Source of the DNA: an endosymbiont of unidentified scaly snail isolate Monju
Lineage (GTDB): Bacteria > Pseudomonadota > Gammaproteobacteria > Chromatiales > Chromatiaceae
Direction of reading: 5' to 3'
DNA length: 64,000 nt
Assembly (NCBI RefSeq): GCF_000801295.1
Contig: NZ_AP012978.1
Span: 620,001-684,000 of the forward strand
A program made the translations under genes and the position numbers. Below, one piece after another: positions 10,268 to 48,887 of this stretch. A model generated the notes under the pieces. The model saw nothing but the letters and a program-made list of their open reading frames with translations. It searched no databases and was not told the DNA's origin. How positions within the stretch are numbered: the stretch's first letter is position 1; the number at the start of each line of letters is the position of its first letter.

Positions 10268-12563
10268 ATGGCAAACGATAATGTGATCTCATTCGAGAAA
10301 TCGGCAGATCAGGCCAGAAATCGGCTGGTCGGCGAACGCTGTCGCCGTGCAGTACGTTCCATGCAGGACTACCTGCAGAAGACGCTGCCGCGGCTGGTGC
10401 AGGACCTTTTCGACCGCCTGGACGACGAGCTGTATGCCATGGCCGACAAATCGGCCAGTGATCTGCTGCAGACGCGTTATTTCGATGCCATGCGCGAGCT
10501 GCGCAAACACCGGAGCGGTATCGAGCAGCGTTTCGTGCAGGGACGCCTGGCGGCCTTTGAACGTTTCTGGGATGCCGCACCGCCTCGCGCCGAAAAGACC
10601 GAGGAGTACGCCTCTTCCCTGACCGAGGATGAATTGTCGCTGGTCGAAGAAGATGTGCTGGAAGAGGAGCTGGCGATCGCCTCGTTGGTCTCCAAGGCGG
10701 AGAACCGCTATCACCGGACCCTGTTTGCACTGAACAAGCGTTTTGCGGCCATTCACCGGGTAGAGGAATTCGATGTCGCCAGCAATCCCGTGGGGCCGAA
10801 GGCGCTGGCCGAAGGTTTTTCCGAGGCCTTGTCCGGCTGGCAGAGCGAAACCGACGTTCGCCTGATCGTCTATAAACTGTTCGTATCGTTACGTCATGGC
10901 CTATGTCGGTGGCATCTATGACGAACTGAACGACATCCTGGTCGAGAACGATATCCTGCCACGCATCTCGCAGCGCGTACGCCGTAACCCGGTGGCTCCC
11001 TCGGTGCGGCATGCGAACTCCAAACAGAGGGGTGAGGCAGGCGATGCCGGTTTCGATCCCGAAATGCTGAATATGCTCGGCCAGATGTTGAGCGAGCGGC
11101 GGCGTGCCGAAGATCGCATTCCCTGGTATGCGCGTGCCGACAGCACGCCCCAGTTGCCACAGATACCGACCAGCGAGCTGCTGGGTGCGCTCGACGAGAT
11201 ACAGCGCTATACGCTGAACACGGTGCCGCCTGACCTGGCCAGCCTGCGCGAGCTGCAAGACGAGTTGATGCAGAGTCTCGGCCGCGAACTGGATGTCGGC
11301 TCACCCGAGCGGCCGATGAAGCGGCTGGGTGAAGGTGACCGCAGCATGCTCGATGTCATGGAGCTGCTGTTCGATTTCATACTGGGCGACGAGAACCTGC
11401 CTGAGCCCATGAAGGCCCTGCTGGGTCGTCTGCAGATCCCGTTGCTCAAGGTGGGATTGCGCGACCGTCGTTTCTTCAGTGATGCACGGCATCCAGCCCG
11501 GCGATTGCTCAACAACCTGGCACGTGCCGGTCTGGCCTGGACCGATGACGGGGACCGTTCGGTGACCAGCCCCTATGGTCGCATCGAATCGGCGGTGTTG
11601 CGCATTCTCAGTGACTTCGATGACGATATCGGCATCTTCGAGCAGGTCAACGAGGAATTCGAAGGCTGGCTCGAACGCGAGCAGAAGCACGCGCGGATCG
11701 CCGAGCAACGCCTGACCCAGGCCCGCGAAGGACAGGAGCAGCTGCATCAGGCGCGCGTGCGGGTTGCCCAGGAGATCCGGCGACTTCTCGATGATTGTGC
11801 GCCCCCCGAATGCCGTGTGCCCGAGGTGGTCGAACGCCTGCTCACCGAGGGCTGGCGTGATGTCATGTTGCTGGCGCTGTTGCGCGAGGGGGAGGACGGC
11901 GAGCAATGGCGACAGGCCGTGGAGTTGGCCGGGCGACTGGTCTGGAGCGTGCAGCCCAAGCACGAACCGACCGAACGCCAGCGTCTGCTCAAGGCCATTC
12001 CCGAGCTCTTGAGTGGCCTGCGTGAGGGACTGAACAATATTTCCTTCGATCCGCACAAGGCGGGACGCCTGTTCAAGGCGCTGCAGGCCTGCCACATCGC
12101 TGCTCTGAGGGGAAACTGGATCAGCGAAGAGGCCGGCAAGCCGGTCGCCCCCCCGGAAGATGCACGGAAGACCACCGCGAGCAACGAGCGGAGCGGGGAT
12201 CTTGTCCAAACTGAACCGGCGCCGCAGGATGTGATGGCCGAGGAACCGCCGTCCCCGCCGCCCGACGAGTTCCTGCGGATGGCCCAGGCGTTGATGCCAG
12301 GCGTCTGGCTGGAATGGACCGATGAGTCGGGTCGCGAGTTGCGCGGCAAGCTGTCCTGGCGCAGCCAGCTCACCGGCAATTGCGTATTCGTCGATCGCCG
12401 TGGCATGAAGCTGGCGGAACTGGGGTGCGAGGAGCTGGCCGCGATGCTGCGTGAGGGCCGGGCGCGCAAGCTCGAGGACCTGAATACGCCGCTGATGGAT
12501 CGTGCCCTCAATGCCATGCTCGAGGTGCTCAAGCGCACCGAACCGGTGCCACCCACCCACTGA
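10268..12563 (+). pseudogene. DUF1631-family gene with a one-base frameshift
   Basis: Two overlapping frames together make a protein of about 765 residues, the usual length of DUF1631 (PF07793) proteins, whose function is poorly known. The first frame (from ATG 10268) ends its conserved sequence at LIVYKLF and then runs into unrelated residues and a stop at 10921. The second frame takes over at RYVMAYVGGIYDELNDILVEN. Removing one T at about 10884 restores F-D-R-Y-V-M across the joint. The second part holds a coiled-coil-like stretch (about 11640-11790) and a C-terminal SWRSQLTGNCVFVDRRG segment. ATG 10229, also in frame, is an alternative start. The context TTCGTATCG is not a homopolymer, so a true mutation is plausible, but a sequencing error cannot be excluded. 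Confidence 0.75.
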
Positions 12564-12585
12564 TCCCGCGCCTTCGTTACAATGT

Positions 12586-35834: not shown

Positions 35835-36776
35835 ATGGCGGGAATTCTCGACGGCGTCGATTTGCGCACCCAACTGGCCGGGCACAACCGTCTGGAGCTG
35901 TTGCTGTTTCGCCTCGGGGGCAAGCAGCGTTACGGCATCAACGTGTTCAAGGTGCAGGAGGTCATTCACTGCCCGCCGCTGACACGGGTGCCGCAGGCGC
36001 ACCCGGTGGTCAAGGGCATCGCCAACATGCGTGGCAAGACCATCACCATCATGGACCTGTCGATGGCCATCGGTGGACCGCCGCTGGAAGACTACGAGAA
36101 CAAGTTCACTGTCATCACCGAGTACAACCGGCGTGTGCAGGGCTTTCTGGTCGATTCGGTGGACCGTATCATCAACATGAACTGGCAGGATATCCTGCCG
36201 CCACCCCGTGGCGCGGCCGAGGGCACCTACATGACGGCGGTCACTCAGATGGACGGCGAGCTGGTCGAGATCATCGACGTGGAGAAGGTGCTCAAGGAGG
36301 TGATCGGTGGGCAGGAAGATGTGTCCGAAGGGGTGATCGAGGAACGGACAGACGAACAGCCGCACCATGTGCTGGTGGTCGACGATTCCAGTGTCGCGCG
36401 CAACCAGGTCACCCGGGTCCTCAAGCGGATGGGCGTGGATTTCACTGCCTGCAAGGACGGACAGGAGGCCTGGGAGCAATTGCAGTCCTGGCTGGATGAT
36501 GAACGCAATGTCGAGGATTTCCTGTCGCTGGTAATCTCGGATGTGGAGATGCCGCGCATGGACGGCTATTCACTCACCAAGAAGATCCGTGAACATCCGG
36601 CGCTCGAGAAGCTGCATGTCATTCTGCACACCTCGCTCAGCGGCGTGTTCAACAAGACCATGGTCGCCAAGGTTGGCGCCAATGACTTCCTTCCCAAGTG
36701 GGAACCGGATACCCTGGCGATGATCGTGCAGGAACAACTGCGCCAGCACGATCAGGCACGTGCCGATGCGGCGTGA
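35835..36776 (+). CDS. cheV: Chemotaxis coupling protein CheV
   Basis: The 313-residue product joins a CheW-like domain (about 1-170, with LLLFRLGGKQRYGINVFKVQEV and VKGIANMRGKTITIMDLS) to a receiver domain (about 185-305, VLVVDDSSVARNQVTRVL, with the phosphorylated Asp in VISDVEMPRMDG). It couples chemoreceptors to CheA and is tuned by phosphorylation. GAAGAGGTGA precedes the ATG. cheR follows after 36 bases, the common cheVR pair next to flgB in gammaproteobacteria with polar flagella. Confidence 0.96.
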   Translation: MAGILDGVDLRTQLAGHNRLELLLFRLGGKQRYGINVFKVQEVIHCPPLTRVPQAHPVVKGIANMRGKTITIMDLSMAIGGPPLEDYENKFTVITEYNRRVQGFLVDSVDRIINMNWQDILPPPRGAAEGTYMTAVTQMDGELVEIIDVEKVLKEVIGGQEDVSEGVIEERTDEQPHHVLVVDDSSVARNQVTRVLKRMGVDFTACKDGQEAWEQLQSWLDDERNVEDFLSLVISDVEMPRMDGYSLTKKIREHPALEKLHVILHTSLSGVFNKTMVAKVGANDFLPKWEPDTLAMIVQEQLRQHDQARADAA

Positions 36777-36812
36777 TTCCGTGTCTGTAAGGAAGCGGAA
36801 ACGGACCAAGAG

Positions 36813-37637
36813 ATGAAAGGAGGCGTCAGCCTGTCGGAAGAGCAGTACCAGGCCATCGCCCGTTACCTGGAGCGGTGCGCGGGCATTCGCCTGGGAGCCG
36901 GCAAGGAATACCTGGTGGTGAGTCGCCTGCGCGGTGTGCTTCAGCGGCATGGCCTGGCTGGCTTCGATGCCCTCGTGCAGGCCCTGCAAGCGGGCGGTGA
37001 CCGCGCGATACAGACCGCGGTGGTCGATGCGATGACTACCAATGAGACCTTCTGGTTCCGCGATGCCGCTCATTACCGCATCCTGGTCGAACAATTGTTG
37101 CCCGCCTGCATCGGCCGTACCGCGCGTATCTGGTCGGCGGCCGCTTCCACCGGCCAGGAACCCTACAGCATCACCTTCGCCATTCAGGAGGCGGTGCTCT
37201 CTGGCCGCCTGCCGCGCGGCTTCGACTACCAGATCCTGGGGACCGACATCTCACCCTCCGCGTTGGCCCAGGCCGAGGCCGCCCGCTACTGCGGGCTGGC
37301 AGGGGTGCGCGGACTGACCCTGGAACAGCGCCAGCGTTTCTTTGTGGACGACGGTGACTGCATCGAGGTCCAGGCCGCCTACCGGCGGCAGGTGCGTTTT
37401 CGTCCTTTCAACCTGCTCGATTCCTTCGATCAGCTCGGGCGTTTCGACGTCATCTTCTGCCGCAACGTGCTCATCTATTTTTCGCAGGAGCGCAAGCGCG
37501 ACATCCTCGAGCGTTTCCATCGCACCTTGAATCCCGGCGGCGCCCTGTTCCTGGGTTCCACCGAGTCGATGAGTGAACACGCCGACCTGTTCGAGATGGA
37601 ACGGCACGGCACAGGGCTGGTGTATCGCCGGTGCTGA
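36813..37637 (+). CDS. cheR: Chemotaxis protein methyltransferase CheR
   Basis: CheR methylates glutamates of chemoreceptors with SAM, setting adaptation. The 274-residue product has the N-terminal helical domain (YLERCAGIRLGAGKEYLVVSRL) and the SAM-binding domain with SAAASTGQEPYSIT, ILGTDISPSALAQAEAARY, FDVIFCRNVLIYFS and GGALFLGSTESM. It shares the cheV transcript. Confidence 0.95.
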   Translation: MKGGVSLSEEQYQAIARYLERCAGIRLGAGKEYLVVSRLRGVLQRHGLAGFDALVQALQAGGDRAIQTAVVDAMTTNETFWFRDAAHYRILVEQLLPACIGRTARIWSAAASTGQEPYSITFAIQEAVLSGRLPRGFDYQILGTDISPSALAQAEAARYCGLAGVRGLTLEQRQRFFVDDGDCIEVQAAYRRQVRFRPFNLLDSFDQLGRFDVIFCRNVLIYFSQERKRDILERFHRTLNPGGALFLGSTESMSEHADLFEMERHGTGLVYRRC

Positions 37638-37726
37638 TTGCCGCCGGCGGCAAGGCCTTGCCCTTCTTGCCGCCGCAGTCCCGCCAGACCTCTCACAAGT
37701 AATTGAATCCACAGCGCTGTTCTGCC

Positions 37727-37742
37727 TGGCACAAAGTCTGCT
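37727..37742 (+). promoter_or_regulatory. Sigma-54 (RpoN) promoter of flgB
   Basis: TGGCACAAAGTCTGCT fits TGGCACG-N4-TTGCW with the GG and GC elements at exact spacing. It lies 35 bases before flgB, as expected for class II flagellar genes. Confidence 0.8.
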
Positions 37743-37777
37743 TCGTGTTCCGTAGACAAGTTGTGTACAGGTGCGAC

Positions 37778-38173
37778 ATGAATCTCGACAAGGTCTTTGG
37801 CATTCACGAACAGGCATTGCAGTTGCGTGCGCGCCGAGCCGAGGTGCTGGCCGCCAACCTGGCGAATGCCGACACTCCCGGCTACAAGGCACGTGATTTC
37901 GATTTCCGCGAGATCCTGCGTGGCCAGTTGCCCCCGCAGGTACAGCTCGCGGCGACCCGGCCCGGGCATATCGTCCCACCGCGCGAGGCGCTGCCGCCTG
38001 CTGCACTGCAATACCGCGTACCCCAGCAGCCTTCGCTCGACGGCAACACCGTGGAGGTAGAGCGCGAGCAGGTCGAATACAGCGCCAACGCGGTGCAGTA
38101 CCAGGCCAGCCTGCGCTTTCTCGACGAGACCATTCGCACGCTCAGGACCGCCATCAAGGGGGCTGCCCAATGA
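37778..38173 (+). CDS. flgB: Flagellar proximal rod protein FlgB
   Basis: FlgB forms the lowest part of the rod. The 131-residue product begins LDKVFGIHEQALQLRARRAEVLAANLANADTPGYKARDFDF, containing the NLANADTPGYKARD rod signature, and ends with the helix QYQASLRFLDETIRTLRTAIKG. ATG 37778 is preferred because it gives the family N terminus. Its TGA overlaps flgC in ATGA. Confidence 0.95.
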   Translation: MNLDKVFGIHEQALQLRARRAEVLAANLANADTPGYKARDFDFREILRGQLPPQVQLAATRPGHIVPPREALPPAALQYRVPQQPSLDGNTVEVEREQVEYSANAVQYQASLRFLDETIRTLRTAIKGAAQ

Positions 38174-38583
38174 GTAGCTTCAAGATCTTCGATATTGCCG
38201 GCTCCGGCATGAATGCGCAGAACCTGCGCCTGAACATCGTCTCTTCCAACCTGGCCAACGTGGATGCGGTATCGAGCAGCGCGGGCGAGACCTACCGGGC
38301 GCGCGAGCCGGTGTTTCGCGCCATCCTCGATCGCTTCGACCCGCAGGCGCCGGCGCAGGGCGTGAGCATGGTCGGTGTGGTCGAGAGCCAGGCGCCGCTG
38401 GTGCGCGAATACGCGCCGAATCACCCGATGGCGGACGAGGACGGCTACATCTACCGGCCCAATGTGAACGCCGTCGAAGAGATGGCCAACATGATTTCCG
38501 CTTCACGCGCCTATCAGAACAACGTGGAGGTGCTCAACGCAGCCCGCCAGATGCTGATGGCGACCATCAATCTCGGACGTTGA
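38170..38583 (+). CDS. flgC: Flagellar rod protein FlgC
   Basis: The 137-residue product begins SSFKIFDIAGSGMNAQNLRLNIVSSNLANVDAVSSS, the FlgC form of the rod motif, and ends EEMANMISASRAYQNNVEVLNAARQMLMATINLG. Length matches the family. It overlaps flgB by four bases, and flgD follows after 11. Confidence 0.96.
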   Translation: MSSFKIFDIAGSGMNAQNLRLNIVSSNLANVDAVSSSAGETYRAREPVFRAILDRFDPQAPAQGVSMVGVVESQAPLVREYAPNHPMADEDGYIYRPNVNAVEEMANMISASRAYQNNVEVLNAARQMLMATINLGR

Positions 38584-38594
38584 GGCAGACCGAC

Positions 38595-39281
38595 ATGAGT
38601 GTGACCGCACTGGACAATACCCAGGACCCCTTCGCCGCGTTGGGACTGAGCCGCCGCGAGGAACAGCAGGGGACCAATGATCCCTCCGAGCTGGGCATGG
38701 GGACCTTCCTCAAGCTGATGGTGACCCAGATGAACAACCAGGACCCGTTCAAGCCCATGGAGAACGGCGACTTCCTCGCACAGATCGCGCAGTTCGGTGC
38801 GGTCTCCGGGCTGGATCGGCTCAATACCCAGATCAGCGACCTGTCCACTTCGCTCACCTCGGGCCAGGCCCTGCAGGCCGGTGGACTGGTGGGGCACGAG
38901 GTCCTGGTGCCGGTGGACAGCGGCTACCTGGCGCCTGGCGGCAGTATTCGCGGCCAGGTCGAGCTGCCGCAGTCCAGCCCCGAGGTGACGCTGCGCATCC
39001 ACGACCAGGCCGGGCAACTGGTGCGCGAGCTGCCGCTGGGCGGCGCACCCGGTGGTCCGCTGCGCTTCGACTGGGATGGCACCGACGACGCCGGCGCCCA
39101 TCTGCCGCCCGGCCGCTACCGGGTAAGTGTCACCGCGGTCCAGGGCGAGAGCAGCGTCGATCTGCAGACCCAGCTGTTCTCGCGGGTGGAATCGGTCAGC
39201 CTGTCCGCCCGCGAGGGCCTGACCCTGAATCTCGAAGGCCTGGGACCGGTGGCCTTCGCCAACATTCAACAGATCTTCTGA
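38595..39281 (+). CDS. flgD: Flagellar hook cap FlgD
   Basis: FlgD caps the growing hook and is later discarded. The 228-residue product has the N-terminal export and cap region (LGMGTFLKLMVTQMNNQDPFKPMENGDFLAQIAQF) and a C-terminal FlgD Ig/TUDOR-like part (LRIHDQAGQLVRELPLGGAPGGPLRFDWDGTDDAGAHLPPGRY). ATG 38595 follows GAGG nine bases upstream. It lies in the flgBCDEF unit. Confidence 0.95.
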   Translation: MSVTALDNTQDPFAALGLSRREEQQGTNDPSELGMGTFLKLMVTQMNNQDPFKPMENGDFLAQIAQFGAVSGLDRLNTQISDLSTSLTSGQALQAGGLVGHEVLVPVDSGYLAPGGSIRGQVELPQSSPEVTLRIHDQAGQLVRELPLGGAPGGPLRFDWDGTDDAGAHLPPGRYRVSVTAVQGESSVDLQTQLFSRVESVSLSAREGLTLNLEGLGPVAFANIQQIF

Positions 39282-39294
39282 CCGGAGGCAAGCC

Positions 39295-40551
39295 ATGTCC
39301 TTTCGCATCGCACTCAGCGGCCTGAACGCCGCATCCACGGACCTCGAGGTCACCGGCAACAATATCGCCAACGCATCGACCATCGGCTTCAAGGAGTCGC
39401 GCGCCGAGTTCGCCGACATGTATGCCAGTGCCATCCAGGATACCTCCAAGAACGCGGCAGGGCAGGGCGTGCAGGTGGCGCGCATCGCCCAGCAGTTCGG
39501 CCAGGGCTCGGTGGACTTCACCTCCAACAATCTCGATCTGGCGATCAGTGGTCAGGGCTTCTTCGTGCTGCAGAATCCGGATGGCACCATCAGCTATACC
39601 CGGGCCGGGGCCTACAGCGTGGACCGCAACGGTTATGTCATCAATCACGCCAACGACCGGCTCCAGGTGTACCCGGCGGTCAACGGGGTGGGCGGCACGA
39701 CCACCTTCAACACCGGGGTATTGCAGGATCTGCAACTGCCCACCACGCCCAGCGCGCCGCAACCCACCAGCGAGGTGACCGCTTCGCTGAACCTGAATTC
39801 TTCCGAGACGGTGCCGGCGGTAGCCTTCGACCCGGCCAACCCGGCCAGCTACAACAGCTCGACCTCGACCACCATCTACGACTCGCTGGGCAATCCGCAC
39901 ACCGCAACCTTCTATTTCCGCAAGACCGCCAACAATGCCTGGGACAGCTATGTGTACGTGGATGGCAACAGCATCCAGACCGGTACCACCACGCCCCCGG
40001 CGACCGCCGACGTGGCGCTGAGCTTCAGCGCCTCGGGCGCCCTGACCTCGCCGGCAGGCGGCATTGCCACCCTGAGTACCTTCACCCCGTCCGGTGGCGG
40101 GGCACCGCTCACCATCGACCTCAACCTCACGGGCACCACCCAGTACGGTGCGGCCTTCGGGGTCAACAACCTCATTCAGGATGGCTATACCTCGGGTCGC
40201 CTGGCCGGCGTGGACATCGACACCGAGGGTGTGATCTTCGCGCGTTATACCAACGGCCAGTCTTCGGCGCTGGGCAAGGTGGCGTTGGCCAAGTTCAACA
40301 ACAACCAGGGATTACGCCAGGTCGGTGACACCGCCTGGGTGGAGTCCTACCAGTCGGGCGCGGCGCAGCTGGGCGAGGCCGGGACCTCGAGCTTCGGGCA
40401 GATCCAGTCAGGGGCACTGGAGGCATCGAACGTGGACGTGGCGGAACAGCTGGTCAACCTGATCACTGCGCAGCGCAACTTCCAGGCCAATGCCAAGGCC
40501 ATTTCCACGGGTGACCAGATCACCCAGGCCATCATCAACCTGGCCCGCTGA
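39295..40551 (+). CDS. flgE: Flagellar hook protein FlgE
   Basis: FlgE makes the flexible hook. The 418-residue product starts FRIALSGLNAASTDLEVTGNNIANASTIGFKESRAEFADMY and ends EQLVNLITAQRNFQANAKAISTGDQITQAIINLAR, the two ends that pack into the D0/D1 core; the middle is the variable outer domain. GGAGG precedes the start. No lesion is visible here, unlike the genes downstream of flgH. Confidence 0.96.
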   Translation: MSFRIALSGLNAASTDLEVTGNNIANASTIGFKESRAEFADMYASAIQDTSKNAAGQGVQVARIAQQFGQGSVDFTSNNLDLAISGQGFFVLQNPDGTISYTRAGAYSVDRNGYVINHANDRLQVYPAVNGVGGTTTFNTGVLQDLQLPTTPSAPQPTSEVTASLNLNSSETVPAVAFDPANPASYNSSTSTTIYDSLGNPHTATFYFRKTANNAWDSYVYVDGNSIQTGTTTPPATADVALSFSASGALTSPAGGIATLSTFTPSGGGAPLTIDLNLTGTTQYGAAFGVNNLIQDGYTSGRLAGVDIDTEGVIFARYTNGQSSALGKVALAKFNNNQGLRQVGDTAWVESYQSGAAQLGEAGTSSFGQIQSGALEASNVDVAEQLVNLITAQRNFQANAKAISTGDQITQAIINLAR

Positions 40552-40566
40552 TCGGGAGGCTGAGCC

Positions 40567-41307
40567 ATGGACCGTATGCTGTATATCGCCATGAGCGGCG
40601 CGCGCGAGACCTTGATCGCCCAGGGCAATGCGAGCAACAACCTGGCGAACGCCAATACCACCGGCTTTCTGGCGGACCTCAACCAGTTTCGCAGCATGCC
40701 GGTCTATGGGCCCGGGCATCCTACTCGCGTATACGCCCTGGACGAGCGGCCGCAGACCGATTTCACGCACGGCGTCATCACCCAGACCGGGCGGGCCCTG
40801 GACGTGGCGGTCAAGGACGGTGGCTGGATCGCGGTGCAGGCGCGCGACGGTTCCGAGGCCTATACCCGGCGTGGTGACCTGAAGGTCGATGCCTCGGGCC
40901 TGCTGGTCACCGGCAACGGCTTGCCGGTACTGGGCGATGGGGGTCCTATCGCGTTGCCGCCCTACGATGCCATCCAGATCGGCAGCGATGGCACCATCTC
41001 GATTCGCCCGCAGGGTGCGGCGGCCAGCGAGCTGGCGGTAATCGATCGCATCAAGCTGGTGGCACCGCAGTTCGATCGCATGGTCAAGGGTGAGGATGGT
41101 CTGATGCGCCTGAAGGATGGTGGCGAGGCCGAGGCGGCGGCCGAGCAGCGCCTGGTCTCGGGCGCGCTGGAGGCGAGCAACGTCAACATCGTCAACGAGA
41201 TGGTGGAGATGATCGAGTTGCAGCGCCGCTTCGAGATGCAGATCAAGCTGATGAAGACCGCCGAGGAGACCGCCTCGGCCAGCGCTTCGGTCGTGCGCCC
41301 GGTCTGA
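40567..41307 (+). CDS. flgF: Flagellar proximal rod protein FlgF
   Basis: The 246-residue product begins DRMLYIAMSGARETLIAQGNASNNLANANTTGFLADLNQFRSM and ends EMVEMIELQRRFEMQIKLMKTAEETASASASVVRPV, both typical of FlgF. It is the last gene of the first flg transcript here. The usual direct neighbour flgG is displaced by an antisense Sel1 gene and about 1.4 kb of DNA. Confidence 0.95.
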   Translation: MDRMLYIAMSGARETLIAQGNASNNLANANTTGFLADLNQFRSMPVYGPGHPTRVYALDERPQTDFTHGVITQTGRALDVAVKDGGWIAVQARDGSEAYTRRGDLKVDASGLLVTGNGLPVLGDGGPIALPPYDAIQIGSDGTISIRPQGAAASELAVIDRIKLVAPQFDRMVKGEDGLMRLKDGGEAEAAAEQRLVSGALEASNVNIVNEMVEMIELQRRFEMQIKLMKTAEETASASASVVRPV

Positions 41308-41420
41308 ACCTCGCAGCCTGTCGGACGTGACGCTGTCTGGCGGCAAATCCGTGGACAGCGCTCAACTGAACTTGTCGAACTCGTTCTTCTGCGCAGAGCA
41401 TCGTTCAGGAACGCGGAGCA

Positions 41421-41449
41421 GGCGCCGGTTGCGGTTTGTGTCCGGCGCC
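41421..41449. terminator. Hairpin between convergent flgF and Sel1 gene
   Basis: GGCGCCGG (41421-41428) and CCGGCGCC (41442-41449) form a perfect eight-base stem. There is no T-run on either side, so termination is only suggested by position. Confidence 0.35.
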
Positions 41450-41472
41450 GTTCGACGGGTGCAGCATCCGGG

Positions 41473-42291
41473 TTAGTCGGCCTCCTCGGCCAGGAAGGCG
41501 GCGACATAGCCGATGAGATGGCCCTCGGGCAGGTAGATCTCATACCACTGCCCGTCCCGGGACTCCCCGAGCCGATAGACGATATCGCCGGCGTTGCGCC
41601 GATCGATGATTTCGGCTTGCAGATCGGGCTGGATGCGGATGTTGACTCGGGTACGATGGATGCGCAGGCGCGGCAGGCGCTGTACGTATTCCTCGACCCG
41701 CTTGCGGGCCGGTTCCACTCCCTGCTGTGCCGCCAGCGCTTCCCAGAACACGGCCAGGCCGTCGTCGCGCTCCGTACCGTAGCCCTCGGCATACATGATG
41801 CCCAGGTTCATCTGTGCCCAGGCATGGCCCTGGCGCGCGGCCAGGGTGAACCAGCGGAACGATTGCTGCAGATCCCGCTCTTCCGGTGGACGGCTGGCAT
41901 ACAGCAGGGCCAGGTTGTATTGCGCCTTGGCTATCCCCTTGGCGGCGGCCTTCTCGTACCAGTAGCGGGCCTTTTCGGGATCGCGCTCGACCCCCTTGCC
42001 CTTGTGGTAGATGGCGCCGAGGTTGACCATGGCCTTGCCATACCCTTGTGCCGCAGCCTTTTCGTACCAGGCAATGGCCTTCTCGATATCGCGGGTCCTT
42101 TCCTGTCCCGCTTCGTAGAAAAGCCCGAGCACGTACTGGGCTTGTGGATCACCCTCGTGGGCCAGTCGCAGTGTCTCCTTCAGCACCAGCGAAAGGGATG
42201 AGGTTTTCGCGTCTGCGGCCTGTTCCGCCTGGAGGGGCAGGGGGGCCAGGGAAAGGATCAGCAGCCAGGCGGCAAGGGTGTTCTGCTTCAT
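41473..42291 (-). CDS. Secreted Sel1-repeat protein with C-terminal SH3-like domain
   Basis: The 272-residue product begins with a signal peptide (MKQNTLAAWLLILSLAPLPLQ, cut after QAEQA or nearby) and is therefore probably periplasmic. Sel1/TPR-like repeats follow, such as YVLGLFYEAGQERTRDIEKAIAWYEKAAAQ, MVNLGAIYHKGKGVERDPEKARYWYEKAA and MNLGIMYAEGYGTERDD. The last 65 residues look like a bacterial SH3 domain (TRVNIRIQPDLQAEIIDRRNAGD and on). Such proteins scaffold interactions or bind cell wall. It lies antisense between flgF and flgG, splitting the flg operon; a role in flagellar assembly is possible but not shown. Confidence 0.88.
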   Translation of the reverse strand: MKQNTLAAWLLILSLAPLPLQAEQAADAKTSSLSLVLKETLRLAHEGDPQAQYVLGLFYEAGQERTRDIEKAIAWYEKAAAQGYGKAMVNLGAIYHKGKGVERDPEKARYWYEKAAAKGIAKAQYNLALLYASRPPEERDLQQSFRWFTLAARQGHAWAQMNLGIMYAEGYGTERDDGLAVFWEALAAQQGVEPARKRVEEYVQRLPRLRIHRTRVNIRIQPDLQAEIIDRRNAGDIVYRLGESRDGQWYEIYLPEGHLIGYVAAFLAEEAD

Positions 42292-42399
42292 GGGTTCGGC
42301 GGGCCTGTCGTTTCTGAAGGTGCGGTCGTCGGCATTTCCTGCGCCTTGGGGATCTCCGGTCAGGTCGTTCCCTGACGAGCCGGGAGGCTCGGGTGTTAT

Positions 42400-42433
42400 C
42401 CCCCTCCCGACCTTCCCCGCAAGTGGCGGAGGG
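42400..42433. repeat. GC-rich palindromic unit
   Basis: CCCCCTCCCGACCTTCCCCG is followed by CAAGTGGCGGAGGG. It is a diverged member of the same palindrome family as 60285-60372. Confidence 0.5.
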
Positions 42434-42595
42434 AACCGACCGGAGGCTCCCTTGGCTCCGGCGAACTTATACCCTCGACGCCTCGTGCCTGCAAATGGCC
42501 GCCGTGCCACTCGGGCGGCAAGGTCTTGCCGCTCGATCAGGCCATGGCGCGGTCCCCGGTCGGCCAGGGGCCGTTCTGGCGGGGCTTGTGCGACA

Positions 42596-42611
42596 TGGCA
42601 AGCCTCTTGCT
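42596..42611 (+). promoter_or_regulatory. Sigma-54 (RpoN) promoter of flgG operon
   Basis: TGGCAAGCCTCTTGCT matches TGGCACG-N4-TTGCW at all but one of the conserved positions. It is 66 bases upstream of flgG, giving this half of the flg locus its own RpoN control. Confidence 0.8.
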
Positions 42612-42677
42612 TGCTTCTCGGGTGAAGAGCCAACCCGCCGGGGCGATGACGCACCGGCACGAAAGGAGAGAATGCCC

Positions 42678-43463
42678 ATGTACCCCGCACTCTGGATCGC
42701 CAAGACCGGACTCGACGCCGAGCAGACCCGCATGTCGGTGATCTCCAACAACCTGGCCAACGTCAATACCACCGGCTTCAAGCGTGATCGCGCGGTGTTC
42801 GAGGACCTGATGTACCAGAACATTCGCCAATCCGGTGCCAGCAGTACCCAGGACACCAATCTGCCCTCGGGTCTCTATCTGGGCACTGGCGTGCGCACCG
42901 TGTCCACCCAGAAGCTGCACACCCAGGGCAACATCGTGCAGACCAACAACAGTTTCGACGTGGCGGTGCAAGGCAACGGCTTCTTCCAGATCAGCCATCC
43001 CGACGGCAGCATCGTCTACACGCGCGACGGCGCCTTCGGCCTGGATGCCAACGGGCAGCTGGTGACCCAGAACGGCTTCCCGCTGGAGCCGGCGATCACG
43101 GTGCCGGCCAACACCATCAAGGTGACCATCGGCTCGGACGGCACGGTCTCCGCGCTGGTGGCGGGCAACACCACGCCGACCACCATTGGCACTATCACCC
43201 TGGCGCAGTTCGTCAACCCGACCGGGCTGGAGGCCATCGGTGACAACCTCTATCGCGAGACTGCCGCCAGCGGTGCGGCGCAGGTCGATACCCCCGGGCA
43301 GAACGGGGCGGGCACCCTGATCCAGGGCGCGTTGGAGAATTCCAACGTCAACGTGGTCGAGGAGCTGGTGAACATGATCGAGACCCAGCGTGCCTACGAG
43401 ATGAACTCCAAGGCCATCTCCACCACCGACGACATGCTGGTCTACGTGAGCCAGCAGCTCTGA
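42678..43463 (+). CDS. flgG: Flagellar distal rod protein FlgG
   Basis: The 261-residue product begins [50 protein letters not shown] and ends [31 protein letters not shown], the FlgG ends. Length equals the family. ATG 42678 gives the family N terminus with AGGAG nine bases upstream; ATG 42672 would add two residues. It is expressed from the sigma-54 promoter above. Confidence 0.96.
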
Positions 43464-43479
43464 GCCTGAGGTACGCGGG

Positions 43480-44190
43480 ATGATGCCGATGCATACCATG
43501 CGACGCCTGGCCGGCCTGCTGGTGCTGGCCGTGTTCGCGCTGGCTGGCTGCCAGTCGCAGCCAAAGCGCGACCCGGCCTTCGCACCGGTGCCGCCCGAGG
43601 TACCGAAGCCGGCGGCGCAGGCCAATGGCGCCATCTACCAGGCCGGCTTCGAGCATCGCTGGTTCGAGAATGTGCGCGCGCGGCGAGTGGGTGACATCCT
43701 GCTGGTGACCCTGGTGGAGAACACCGAGGCCAAGCATACCAATGCCGGCAAGGTGAAGAAGTCCAATACCAGCTCGATCACCAATCCCACCCTGCTGGGC
43801 AAGCCCTTCAGCTTCGTGCTGCCAGGCGTGACCGGCGGCAAGGACGCGGACCTGGGCGCCAGTCTGTCATCGAGCAGTGATTTCTCGGGTAGCGGCGAGA
43901 ACACCCAGAACAACCAGTTCAATGGCTCCATCTCGGTGATGGTCACCGAGGTGTTGCCCAACGGCTACCTGCGGGTGCGCGGCGAGAAGCGCATCGCCAT
44001 GACCGGTGGTAACGAGTACATCCGCGTCTCCGGCATCGTGCGGCCCGAGGACATCGACGTGGACAACAGCATCGCCTCGACCAAGATCGCCGATGCCACC
44101 CTCACCTACGTGGGCGACGGCCAGACCGGCATGGCCTCGACCATGGGCTGGCTGGCGAAGTTCTTCATCTCGGCGGTGATGCCTTTCTAG
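43480..44190 (+). CDS. flgH: Flagellar L-ring lipoprotein FlgH
   Basis: FlgH forms the outer-membrane ring. The 236-residue product has a lipoprotein signal with lipobox LAGC at Cys24. The body carries [76 protein letters not shown] and [15 protein letters not shown]. It seems intact and ends with TAG, showing that TAG serves as an ordinary stop here. Confidence 0.95.
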
Positions 44191-44197
44191 AGGGGAC

Positions 44198-45211
44198 ATG
44201 ACGATGCGCAAGGTGCTGATCTTCTTCCTGTCACTCGGCCTGCTGAGCAGTGCGGTTCGGGCCGAGCGCATCAAGGACCTGGCCAATGTGCAGAGCCTGC
44301 GCAGCATGCTCACCCAGCTCGGCATCGTGGTGCCGCCCGGCACCAAGATCAATCCCAAGAACGTGGCGGCGGTGACGGTACATGCCGAGCTGCCACCCTT
44401 CGTCAAGCCGGGGCAGCGCATCGACGTTACCGTCTCGTCGATCGGCGACGCCAAGAGCCTGCGTGGCGGCAGCCTGCTGATGACCCCGCTGAAGGGTATC
44501 GACGGCAAGGTGTACGCCATCGCCCAGGGCAACCTGGTGGTCGGCGGCCTGTCCGCCGAGGGCGCGGATGGTTCGCGGGTGACCATCAACATTCCCAGCT
44601 CGGGCCGGATTCCGGATGGGGCTACCGTGGAACGCACGGTAGCAACCGGTTTTGCCAGCAACCCGACCCTGACCCTGACCCTCAAGGAGGGTGACTTCAC
44701 TACCGTCTCGCGCGTAGTCAAGGCGATCAACGACACCATCGGCCCCGGCACCGCGCGTGCCCTCGACATGGCCTCGGTGCAGGTCAATGCGCCGGCGGAC
44801 ATCGGCCAGCGTGTGACCTTCATGTCCATGATCGAGAACATCGAGGTCGAGCCCGCGCAGGCCGTGGCGCGGGTGATCGTCAATTCGCGTACCGGCACGG
44901 TGGTCATCAACCAGGCAGTGCGAGTGGCACCGGCCGCGGTGTCGCACGGCAGCATGACGGTCACGATCAGCGAGGCGCCACAGGCCTCGCAGCCCAATCC
45001 CCTGAGCGGTGGACAGACCGTGGTGGTGCCCAACAGCCAGGTGGATGTCACCGAGAACGGGCGGCACATGTTCAAGTTCGCGCCCGGGGTGACCCTCGAC
45101 GAGGTAGTGCGCGCGGTCAACGAGGTGGGGGCCGGTCCCAGTGACCTGGTGGCCATTCTCGAGGCGCTCAAGCAGGCCGGTGCGCTGAAGGCGGACCTGG
45201 TGATCATCTGA
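44198..45211 (+). CDS. flgI: Flagellar P-ring protein FlgI with internal deletion
   Basis: FlgI builds the periplasmic P-ring around the rod. The 337-residue product has a signal peptide ([20 protein letters not shown]) and a normal body and C terminus. However, [10 protein letters not shown] is joined directly to [18 protein letters not shown]. In E. coli FlgI these parts are separated by the highly conserved block with [20 protein letters not shown], about 31 residues; our length is short by just that amount from about 365-370. The frame is kept. GTGCAG at the joint would encode the V-Q found on both sides of the missing block, so loss between short direct repeats is plausible. Whether it still assembles is doubtful. 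The stop overlaps flgJ. Confidence 0.9.
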
Positions 45212-46107
45212 TGAGTATCGAACTGGCCCAGGTCTATACCGATTTCTCCGCGCTGGGCAGCCTGCGTGCCCGTGCGCGTGCCGACCGCGAGGGGGCGGTG
45301 GACGAGGTGGCGAGCCAGTTCGAATCGCTGTTCACGTAGATGATGTTGCGCAGCATGCGCGACGCCAGCTTCGGCGGCGGTCTGCTCGACAGCCAGCAGA
45401 GCCGCTTCTACCGCGACATGTACGACCAGCAGCTCGCCATCGAGCTGAGCAGCCAGCGTGGCCTGGGGCTGGCCGAGGTGATCAAGCGGCAGCTCCAGGG
45501 CATGCAGCCGGCCAGTGGCGCGGGACGGACGCCGACCGACTATCGCGCACAGACCATTGCCCCAGCGCCAGTCGATCCCGCAACACCCGCCGAGGCGCCA
45601 CCGGTGCTTGATGGCACACCGGAGGGCTTCGTGCACACATTGTGGCCGGCGGCAGAGAAGGCCGCCCGGGAACTGGGCCTGCCGCCCGAGGCCCTGCTGG
45701 CCCAGGCCGCACTGGAGACCGGCTGGGACGCACACGTGATGACGCGCGCCGACGGCAGTTCCAGTCACAACCTGTTCGGTATCAAGGCCGACGAACGCTG
45801 GTCGGGGGAACGGGTGACGGTGACGACCCTGGAATATCGCGATGGCGTGGCAGTGCGGACCCGCGCCGATTTCCGCGCCTATACGGACTGGGAGGAGAGT
45901 TTCACGGACTATGTGCGCTTCGTCCGCGACAACCCCCGTTACCGGCAGGCGCTGGAAGTGGCCGATGACCCGCAACGTTATTTCGAGGCGCTGCAGAAGG
46001 CAGGCTATGCCACCGATCCGGCCTATGCCGAGAAGATCCAGCGCATCCTCGAACGCGGCACCTTGCATACCGCCGCCATGGACAAGGAGGGCGCAAGGGC
46101 CGGGTGA
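45211..46107 (+). pseudogene. flgJ: flgJ (rod cap / peptidoglycan hydrolase) with in-frame amber codon
   Basis: ATG 45211, overlapping the flgI stop, opens the FlgJ N terminus (ELAQVYTDFSALGSLRARAR, then VASQFESLFT). Codon 43 (45337-45339) is TAG where the family has Gln in the motif F-x-Q-M-M-L-K-S-M-R. The frame goes on without a break as MMLRSMRDASFGGGLLDSQQ and MYDQQLAIELSSQRGLGLAEV. The C-terminal glucosaminidase domain (FVHTLWPAAEKAARELGLPPEALLAQAALETGWDAH, HNLFGIKADERW) ends at 46107. Full length would be 298 residues. TAG is followed at once by ATG-ATG, so a 255-residue protein lacking the first part of the rod-cap domain could arise by restart. Confidence 0.85.
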
Positions 46108-46124: not shown

Positions 46125-48887
46125 ATGGCAAACATCCTCAACACCGGTGTCAGTGCCCTCAACGCCTTCAAGCGCCAGCTGGCGACCACCGGGCACAATA
46201 TTGCCAACGTCAACACCGAGGGCTACAGCCGCCAGCGAGTGGAACTGGCCACCCTGGCGCCGCAGGCGGGCAGCGACGGCTTCACCGGTTCCGGCGTCAA
46301 TGTCACCGCCATCCGCCGCAGCTACGACGACTATCTGGCCGGCAGGGTGCGCGCCTACAACGCCTCGCAACAGGAGTACGCCATCTACCAGGAGCGTGCA
46401 GGGCAGGTGGACAACGTCATCGCGGATGCCGCCTCGGGGCTGGATTCGATGATGCAGGACTTCTTCGCCAGCATCGAAGACCTGTCCGCCGACCCGACCT
46501 CCATCCCCGCGCGCAACGTCATGCTCAACCGGTCCGAGGTGCTGGTCGACCGTTTCCATTCGCTCGACGGCTGGATGAACGACCTGCGGACCCAGGTCGA
46601 TCGTGACCTGGAGAACTTCGCCAGCGAGATCAACGGTCTGGGTTCTGCCATCGCGTCGGTGAACCAGCGCATCCAGGCACTCAGTGCCGGCATCAAGAAC
46701 CCGCCCAACGATCTGCTGGACGAGCGCGACCGGCTGATCGACAAGTTGTCGCAATACGTCAAGGTCGACACCGTGGCGCAGGACAATGGCGCCATGAACG
46801 TCTTCATCGGCAACGGCCAGGCGCTGGTGATCGGCGAGAACGCCAATCGCATGTCGGTGATCAACAATGCCGAGGCGGCCGACCGCAAGGAGCTGGCGAT
46901 CGACATCCTCGGTGCGGGCAGTACGGTGGTCACCGGGCAGATCAGCGGCGGCAAGCTGGGCGGCCTGTTGCGCTTCCGCGACGAGGTGCTCGATCCCGCA
47001 CAGAACACCCTGGGCCTGGTGGCCATCGGCTTGGCCGAACGCTTCAATGCCCTGCACCGTACCGGCATGGACCTGGACGGTGACCTGGGTGGGGACTACT
47101 TTGCCCTGGCCGCGCCCGAGGTGCTGGCCAATCCGGGTAACGTCGGCAGCATCAGTGTCGGTATCGACAGCGTGGCCGGCCTGCAACCGCACGAGTACCA
47201 GCTCGTCTACGACGGCGCGAACTGGAATCTGACCGACCTGACCACCGGCGGCAACGTGGCCCTGAGTGGCGCCGGCACCGCGGCCAGCCCCCTGGTGGCC
47301 GACGGCATGGCGATCGTGGTGGGGACGCCGCCGGCGGCCGGTGATCGCTACCGGCTGCGGCCGACGCGTGACGGCGCATCGGCCATCGACACCCTGGTGA
47401 AGAACACCCGCGACATTGCTGCCGCCGACCCGGTGCGTACCGCCCCGGTGGGGAGCAACACCGGTACTGGACAGATCGGTGCCGGCGCCCTGGTCACGCG
47501 AACCGGCAACACCCCGCTGGCCGCGCCGGTCACCCTCAGCTATGACAGCGCGCTCAAGCAGTTCAACCTGTCCAGCGGCGGCAGCATCCCCTACGACCCG
47601 GCGACCGACAGCGGAAACACCCTGACGGTGACGCTGGCCGGCCTGGGCGATTTCAGTTTCCGCATGACCGGCAACCCGGCCAATGGCGACCAGTTCGTGC
47701 TTGCCGACAACACCGGCGGGGTGGGCGACAACCGTAACGCGATGCGCCTGTCGGACCTGCAGAAGACTTCCCTGCTGTTCGGCAACAGCGCCACCCTCGG
47801 TGATGCCTACGGCTACCTGATGGCCGACGTGGGTACCCGCACCCGCCAGGCTGCCGACAACGCCGACGTCCAGGCACAACTGCTGGGTCAGGCGGAGTCC
47901 GCGCGCTCCGCTACCTCGGGTGTGAATCTCGACGAGGAGGCCGCCGAGCTGGTGCGTTTCCAGCAGGCCTACGCGGCCGCCGCACAGGTGGTCGCCACCC
48001 CCTACCTGTTCTCCCGCGGCGTGGATGTGATGTTGCGCAAGCAGGTCGAGATCAGCCAGACCGAGCTGCAACTGGCCAACGGCCGGCGCATCCTCCATCC
48101 TTCCGACGACCCGGCCGGTTCGGTGCAACTGCTCGACCTGAAGGAGACCAAGGCCCGGCTGGACCAGTTTCAGCGCAATGCCGATGCAGCGAACGCCCGC
48201 CTGTCCGCCGAGGAGGTCGCCCTCGAGGGCATCGGCAACCTGCTGCAACGGGTGCGCGAACTGACCGTGCAGGGCAACAACGACGCCCTGAGCGCGCAGG
48301 ACCGCAAGGCCATCGCGCTGGAGATCCGTCAGCATGCCGAGGGCTTTCTGCAACTGGCCAACAGCCGCGACGCCAACGGCGAATACCTGTTTGCCGGTTA
48401 TCGTACCGATACGCCGCCACTGAGCCACGACGGCGCCGGCAACTTCACTTACAACGGCGATGCCGGGCAACGCCGGGTCAAGGTGGGCGATACCCGCGAG
48501 ATCGCCATGAACGACCCGGGCACCCTGTTCATGGACCTGCCGGCGGCCGGTGGCGGTACCACCGACATCGGTGCCGTGCTCTGGCGTATTGCCGACAACT
48601 TCGCCGCGGGCAACCGCGATGCCAACGGTCTGACCGACCTGGACAATGCCATGGGGCGCATCCTCGAGACCCGCGCCTCGGTGGGGGCGCGCATGAACGC
48701 CATCGAGGAACAGAAGACCGCCAATGCCTCGTTCAGCGTTGCGGTCGAGCAGGTGCGCTCCACGCTGGAAGACCTGGACTATGCCGAGGCGATCAGCCGC
48801 TTCAACCAGCAGCTCGCCGCCCTGCAGGCCTCGCAGCAGAGCTTTCTCAAGATCCAGGGGCTCAGCCTGTTCGACTACCTGCGCTGA
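46125..48887 (+). CDS. Fused hook-junction proteins FlgK-FlgL
   Basis: This single 920-codon frame encodes FlgK (about 1-625) continued by FlgL (about 626-920). The FlgK start is NILNTGVSALNAFKRQLATTGHNIANVNTEGYSRQRV; its end is recognised in GVNLDEEAAELVRFQQAYAAAAQVVAT. There, instead of the last dozen residues and a stop, the chain passes to PYLFSRGVDVMLRKQVEISQTELQLANGRRILHPSDDPAGS, which is FlgL without its first four or five residues. The rest is normal FlgL, ending SLFDYLR. The joint lies at about 47995-47999, where CCACC could be shared by both parents. These two junction proteins are normally separate, and both ends of each pack in the filament core, so function of the fusion is uncertain. 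Confidence 0.9.
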   Translation: MANILNTGVSALNAFKRQLATTGHNIANVNTEGYSRQRVELATLAPQAGSDGFTGSGVNVTAIRRSYDDYLAGRVRAYNASQQEYAIYQERAGQVDNVIADAASGLDSMMQDFFASIEDLSADPTSIPARNVMLNRSEVLVDRFHSLDGWMNDLRTQVDRDLENFASEINGLGSAIASVNQRIQALSAGIKNPPNDLLDERDRLIDKLSQYVKVDTVAQDNGAMNVFIGNGQALVIGENANRMSVINNAEAADRKELAIDILGAGSTVVTGQISGGKLGGLLRFRDEVLDPAQNTLGLVAIGLAERFNALHRTGMDLDGDLGGDYFALAAPEVLANPGNVGSISVGIDSVAGLQPHEYQLVYDGANWNLTDLTTGGNVALSGAGTAASPLVADGMAIVVGTPPAAGDRYRLRPTRDGASAIDTLVKNTRDIAAADPVRTAPVGSNTGTGQIGAGALVTRTGNTPLAAPVTLSYDSALKQFNLSSGGSIPYDPATDSGNTLTVTLAGLGDFSFRMTGNPANGDQFVLADNTGGVGDNRNAMRLSDLQKTSLLFGNSATLGDAYGYLMADVGTRTRQAADNADVQAQLLGQAESARSATSGVNLDEEAAELVRFQQAYAAAAQVVATPYLFSRGVDVMLRKQVEISQTELQLANGRRILHPSDDPAGSVQLLDLKETKARLDQFQRNADAANARLSAEEVALEGIGNLLQRVRELTVQGNNDALSAQDRKAIALEIRQHAEGFLQLANSRDANGEYLFAGYRTDTPPLSHDGAGNFTYNGDAGQRRVKVGDTREIAMNDPGTLFMDLPAAGGGTTDIGAVLWRIADNFAAGNRDANGLTDLDNAMGRILETRASVGARMNAIEEQKTANASFSVAVEQVRSTLEDLDYAEAISRFNQQLAALQASQQSFLKIQGLSLFDYLR

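Follow-up and report, generated by a model that had tools for sequence, protein, structure and literature searches.

The fused flgK-flgL reading frame

Does an open reading frame in which flgK and flgL run into each other without a stop encode a new one-piece hook-filament junction protein, or is it a trace of a flagellum that is being lost? The frame lies in a 64,000-nt stretch of DNA (the window, in which the positions in Table 1 are counted), as the last gene of the flgB-to-flgL run of a genome of 2,597,759 bp in a single contig, termed G000 here. The fusion is best read as ordinary decay, one of several breaks, and not as evidence of a new junction protein. With a probability of roughly 0.88, the fused frame arose as a side effect of flagellar decay in a bacterium which has probably been living inside a host for a short time only; that no flagellum would be built, and the order of events proposed below, we infer from the sequence.

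Table 1. Features of the flagellar gene run in the window (all coordinates in bp from the first position of the window)
Feature	Position	Strand	Source or remark
cheV, cheR, flgB to flgH, frames open	35835..44190	+	
flgI lacking 93 bp in frame, with loss of 31 conserved residues	44198..45211	+	
17-bp imperfect direct repeat at the flgI deletion joint	44290..44306	+	
flgJ, interrupted at codon 43	45211..46107	+	
In-frame TAG in flgJ, Gln codon in CTD079	45337..45339	+	
flgK-flgL fused open frame, 920 codons, ATG to TGA	46125..48887	+	ORF listing, Pfam, NCBIfam
FlgK part, equivalent to residues 1-625 of 639 in CTD079	46125..47999	+	
CCACC at the joint	47995..47999	+	two copies flank the missing 67 bp in CTD079
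FlgL part, equivalent to residues 7-301 of 301 in CTD079; residues 626-920 of the fusion	48000..48884	+	

Pfam and NCBIfam models place FlgK_D1 and FlgK (TIGR02492), followed by Flagellin_N, Flagellin_C and FlgL (TIGR02550), in one and the same protein. The scores of 316.2 bits for TIGR02492 (curated cut-off, 170.75), 259.9 for FlgK_D1 (PF22638; cut-off, 28.6) and 274.8 bits for TIGR02550 (curated cut-off, 127.2) put both families above their thresholds in a single open reading frame, and thus bear out the original prediction of one 920-codon flgK-flgL gene. Within the assembled sequence, the fusion is real. The C-terminal end of FlgK is incomplete, since the final 14 of the 639 residues present in CTD079 are gone together with the stop codon, and the FlgL part lacks its own start codon and the first five CTD079 residues. 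The stop, the spacer and the first FlgL residues had been correctly predicted to be absent, while the loss of “about a dozen” FlgK residues is to be specified as exactly 14. Sequence homology to FlgK and FlgL of Salmonella (PDB 9go6) extends along both parts of the fused protein; in Salmonella, however, these are two proteins with free ends, whereas in G000 they make up a single chain that is trimmed at both inner ends.

A 67-bp deletion at the joint

CTD079 (CP037918.1, G003), the nearest relative found, shares the flagellar gene order of G000, with DNA identities of about 89-94% over the blocks that were compared. Unlike G000, it possesses two flagellins and separate flgK and flgL genes, of 639 and 301 codons, respectively, with the flgL frame at +1. 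CTD079 carries CCACC twice at a spacing of 67 bp, in the end of flgK and again at the start of flgL, while the window contains a single copy and 67 bp fewer. Direct repeats of at least 5 bp at a distance of 67 bp are expected at only 0.6% of positions (65 kb of CTD079), so that the microhomology, which the original prediction had already suspected from the CCACC motif, exceeds chance expectation. The +1 offset between the flgK and flgL frames is identical in all five genus relatives which carry both genes (G002 to G006). Since the 67-bp loss matches this offset, the join is in frame; an in-frame outcome is a one-in-three event for any deletion. We propose a deletion between the two CCACC copies, with slippage of strands during replication as the probable mechanism, which took out the end of flgK, its stop codon, the spacer and the start of flgL; a flagellum already out of use, or going out of use, would have allowed this deletion to persist.

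A search for the same fusion in related genomes, as suggested together with the original prediction, recovered no second fusion among the loci read. Within the genus, flgK and flgL are apart in 5/5 relatives carrying both (CTD079 and four more); in one of them, G005, flgL itself is split over two frames. FlgK/FlgL matches were not found in the genus members G001 and G007. A scan of 369 genomes of the class yielded 192 with a match to the joint region, and among the matches listed only G000 spans the whole joint query without a stop. Eighty DNA stretches from 80 genomes, picked mostly for wide open frames or for matches across the joint, were combined with the loci from the genus and class searches to give 116 loci from approximately 111 genomes. 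None of these 116 loci, 111 of which hold both parts, contains a fused flgK-flgL, and the same script scores G000, used as positive control, as fused. At 57/116 loci (53/96 + 4/20), which are not a fair sample as many loci were chosen for wide frames, flgK and flgL lie in one frame with a single stop codon between them, so that loss of this stop alone would fuse the genes there.

The missing flagellin block

In a genome-wide profile search of G000 no flagellin was found; the Flagellin_N and Flagellin_C models match only the FlgL part of the fusion. The two flagellin genes of CTD079 are located upstream of fliD, and the interval from fliD to the next shared gene spans 12.4 kb in CTD079 as compared to 2.0 kb in G000. 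Twelve listed CTD079 reading frames of this interval are without G000 counterpart, one of which, on the opposite strand, may be spurious. The neighbours of the flagellins in CTD079 are presumably flaG and fliW. The flagellin block also comprises a large gene with an MptE-like domain, for which we assume a role in flagellin glycosylation. The genes fliD and fliS are retained in G000, and in a separate listing a weak match to 45% of the length of flaG is left. We take the gene in the 2.0-kb interval beside fliD of G000 to be of the GGDEF/EAL type. A candidate for fliK turned out to code for a GGDEF-EAL protein instead.

Breaks in basal body, switch and regulator genes

The fliF gene contains TAG at codons 31 and 53 (numbering of CTD079), around the predicted membrane helix of residues 32-50, which is the only predicted N-terminal membrane helix of the protein. 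Because the two TAGs bracket this helix, neither the normal start nor a restart would yield FliF with its first helix. In CTD079, G005, G001 and G002, fliF is open over its full length; in G006 it occurs in two pieces on two contigs, and it was not found in G004 and G007. Frameshifts affect fliM (codon 327 of 361, relative to CTD079), fliG (codon 56, inside FliG_N; the gene is open in five relatives) and two regulator genes, which we take to be flrB (codon 29, relative to CTD079) and flrC (codon 377, with removal of the Fis helix-turn-helix at 398-437), the changes in fliG and flrC falling in runs of C, which are prone to sequencing error. The 31 residues missing from flgI, lost between imperfect 17-bp repeats, are present in CTD079 and four outgroups, and the TAG in flgJ directly precedes ATG ATG. 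Four residues of fliH are lost in frame, and the loss of 34 residues of a repeated linker from cheA may be harmless. In G000, the MS ring, the switch, the P ring, FlgJ and regulators all have genes with breaks. When CTD079 was in turn checked against G000, none of these genes was flagged as broken in such a way; a flag at the start of flgB looks like a start-site artefact. The lack of flagellin and the breaks in fliF, fliG, fliM, flgI, flgJ and the two regulators support the suggestion, made together with the original prediction, that a broken fusion would mark loss of the flagellum.

Age and pattern of the proposed decay

Values of dN/dS between G000 and CTD079 are low for the flagellar genes (0.068 for the fused frame). 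Replacements in flagellar and chemotaxis genes numbered 57 specific to G000 versus 64 specific to CTD079, compared with 133 and 124, respectively, in other genes; raised amino-acid change in the flagellar and chemotaxis genes of G000 was thus not found, in a branch test which omitted six genes less than 50% identical to the outgroups (including flrC and the gene first taken for fliK) and did not extend to fliE-J and flrAB, where outgroup sequence was absent. As the replacements are even on both branches, the loss looks recent relative to the split between G000 and CTD079. G000 presents a bacterial flagellum early in its loss, with breaks present and amino-acid drift not yet visible.

When breaks were counted by a mechanical rule, which takes in cheA as well as start-site artefacts (fliL, for instance) and overlooks flrB and the fusion, there was no excess in flagellar genes (8/42, versus 10/68 other genes; p = 0.60). 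Genes without flagellar function, such as those of a DUF1631 protein and a hybrid kinase, are also broken, so the erosion may be general. All seven stops and frameshifts, in six genes, fall within about 16% of a gene end, which has a chance probability of about 0.001 if one break per gene is counted, in a test chosen after the fact. The deletions in flgI and flgKL both preserve the reading frame, an outcome not predicted by pure decay. Clustering at gene ends and in-frame deletions may be due to chance, or to residual selection on truncated products.

Four internal stops are taken as real (one in flgJ, two in fliF and one in the hybrid kinase), and all are changes from Gln to TAG; for the three in flgJ and fliF, the chance of this pattern is 0.008 to 0.079, depending on the weight given to transitions. 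A reassignment of TAG was considered and set aside, since TAG still terminates 8/85 conserved genes of G000 and one more internal TAG is found in a doubtful frame.

Alternative explanations

It appears unlikely that a trimmed flagellar export organelle with a working basal body has been kept to send proteins to the host, as considered for Buchnera, the junction genes drifting because no filament is made. Consistent with such an organelle, flhA, flhB, fliP, fliR, fliI, fliH and fliJ are open and have low dN/dS, the stops and frameshifts are close to gene ends, and the available text of PMC8109811 calls the basal body genes of the scaly-foot snail symbiont intact, but not fliC. However, fliF as encoded would give no protein with the first predicted membrane helix, there is damage to fliG, fliM, flgI and two regulators, and the low dN/dS also fits a recent loss.

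Still less probable is a sequencing or assembly error as the origin of the fusion. The fusion is read from assembled sequence, and the C runs in fliG and flrC fit this explanation; but run-length errors would not typically give a clean 67-bp loss with a 5-bp repeat, the loss of 93 bp in flgI, a missing block of 12 kb or three changes to TAG, and the fused frame is open throughout. A more elaborate possibility, to which we attach a lower probability again, is a pared-down export machine with a one-piece FlgK-FlgL tip, in which TAG read as glutamine, or restarts, would rescue FliF and FlgJ, and in which breaks near gene ends, in-frame deletions and the restriction of stops to TAG would be traces of selection.

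That the fused FlgK-FlgL works as a one-piece hook-filament junction is scarcely credible: in Salmonella, FlgK and FlgL each make a layer of 11 subunits, one next to the other (available text of PMC12221982), and the join is in frame with a dN/dS of 0.068, but G000 has no detectable flagellin, FlgK ends 14 residues early, there are breaks in fliF, fliG and flgI, and 0/116 loci are fused. The working fusion for which the original prediction left room is unsupported: a junction would have no filament to bear, and the genes as they stand would not allow the machine below it to be assembled.

Comparison with other partial flagella

According to the accessible part of PMC8109811, Buchnera, like G000, is host-associated and has a partial flagellum, without flagellin but with some flagellar genes kept; its basal-body genes are intact, whereas fliF, fliG, fliM and flgI are damaged in G000. 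In symbionts of the vent snail Gigantopelta aegis, flagellar and chemotaxis operons are disrupted as in G000, but by inserted transposases, as opposed to the small deletions, frameshifts and stops of G000 (PMC7895826, in excerpt). Lysobacter resembles G000 in having lost fliC and other genes with parts of the set left; however, flgK and flgL are gone and not fused, and the organism is a predator of fungi, not a symbiont (PMC9927559, in excerpt).

For the scaly-foot snail endosymbiont, Nakagawa and coworkers reportedly described in 2014 pseudogenes as well as transcribed genes for flagellar assembly, and considered an export of proteins to the host possible. The accessible part of PMC8109811, citing Nakagawa 2014, states that its basal-body genes are intact and fliC is not; in this respect, the missing flagellin is already in print. 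Damage to fliF, fliG, fliM, flgI and flgJ and the flgKL fusion were not found in the literature surveyed, supplements aside. Among the free-living bacteria known, CTD079 (2.75 Mb) was named in 2022 as the nearest relative of the scaly-foot snail endosymbiont, whose published genome is put at 2.60 Mb, and flagellar and chemotaxis genes, among other features, were taken as a sign of a free-living stage (PMC9381778, as far as available). In the available portion of PMC12383625, a table marks a flagellum as present in several columns. The available text of PMC6702916 reports that flagellar genes are lacking in an Alviniconcha symbiont which it describes as very close to the symbiont of Chrysomallon. 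If the genome studied here is that of the scaly-foot snail endosymbiont, as is most likely, both the inference of an intact basal body (PMC8109811, in the part available) and the use of CTD079-like flagellar genes as a sign of a free-living stage (PMC9381778, likewise) need a second look.

Other differences along the genome

A gene on the minus strand of the window (41473-42690), presumably of the Sel1-type repeat family, is located between flgF and flgG. A homologue (58%) occurs at the same place in G006 and only short remnants are left in CTD079, while no such gene was seen in the stretches of G002, G004 and G005; the homologue in G006 rules out a recent insertion between flgF and flgG.

In G001, fliF and fliG are present together with only part of FlhA, and the searches gave no match to FlgK/FlgL, FliD or flagellin; G007 was without match in the same searches. 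The partial gene set of G001 may therefore represent another stage of flagellum loss.

The DUF1631 gene (window 10268-12566) is whole in CTD079 and is divided into two frames in G000 by a 1-bp insertion at codon 206. The hybrid sensor kinase gene (G000:C1:2020245-2024166) is interrupted by TAG at codon 1133 of 1306, where CTD079 encodes Gln, and most of the Hpt end is thereby cut off. Near G000:C1 2024500, about 3 kb outside the flagellar genes are missing relative to CTD079 in a second loss; two genes there are cut to about a third and two others have no counterpart. Small length differences of some 75-300 bp, gains as well as losses, also distinguish the window from CTD079 (e.g., at 12580, 13822, 15260 and 31642), and short overlaps at their ends suggest direct repeats.
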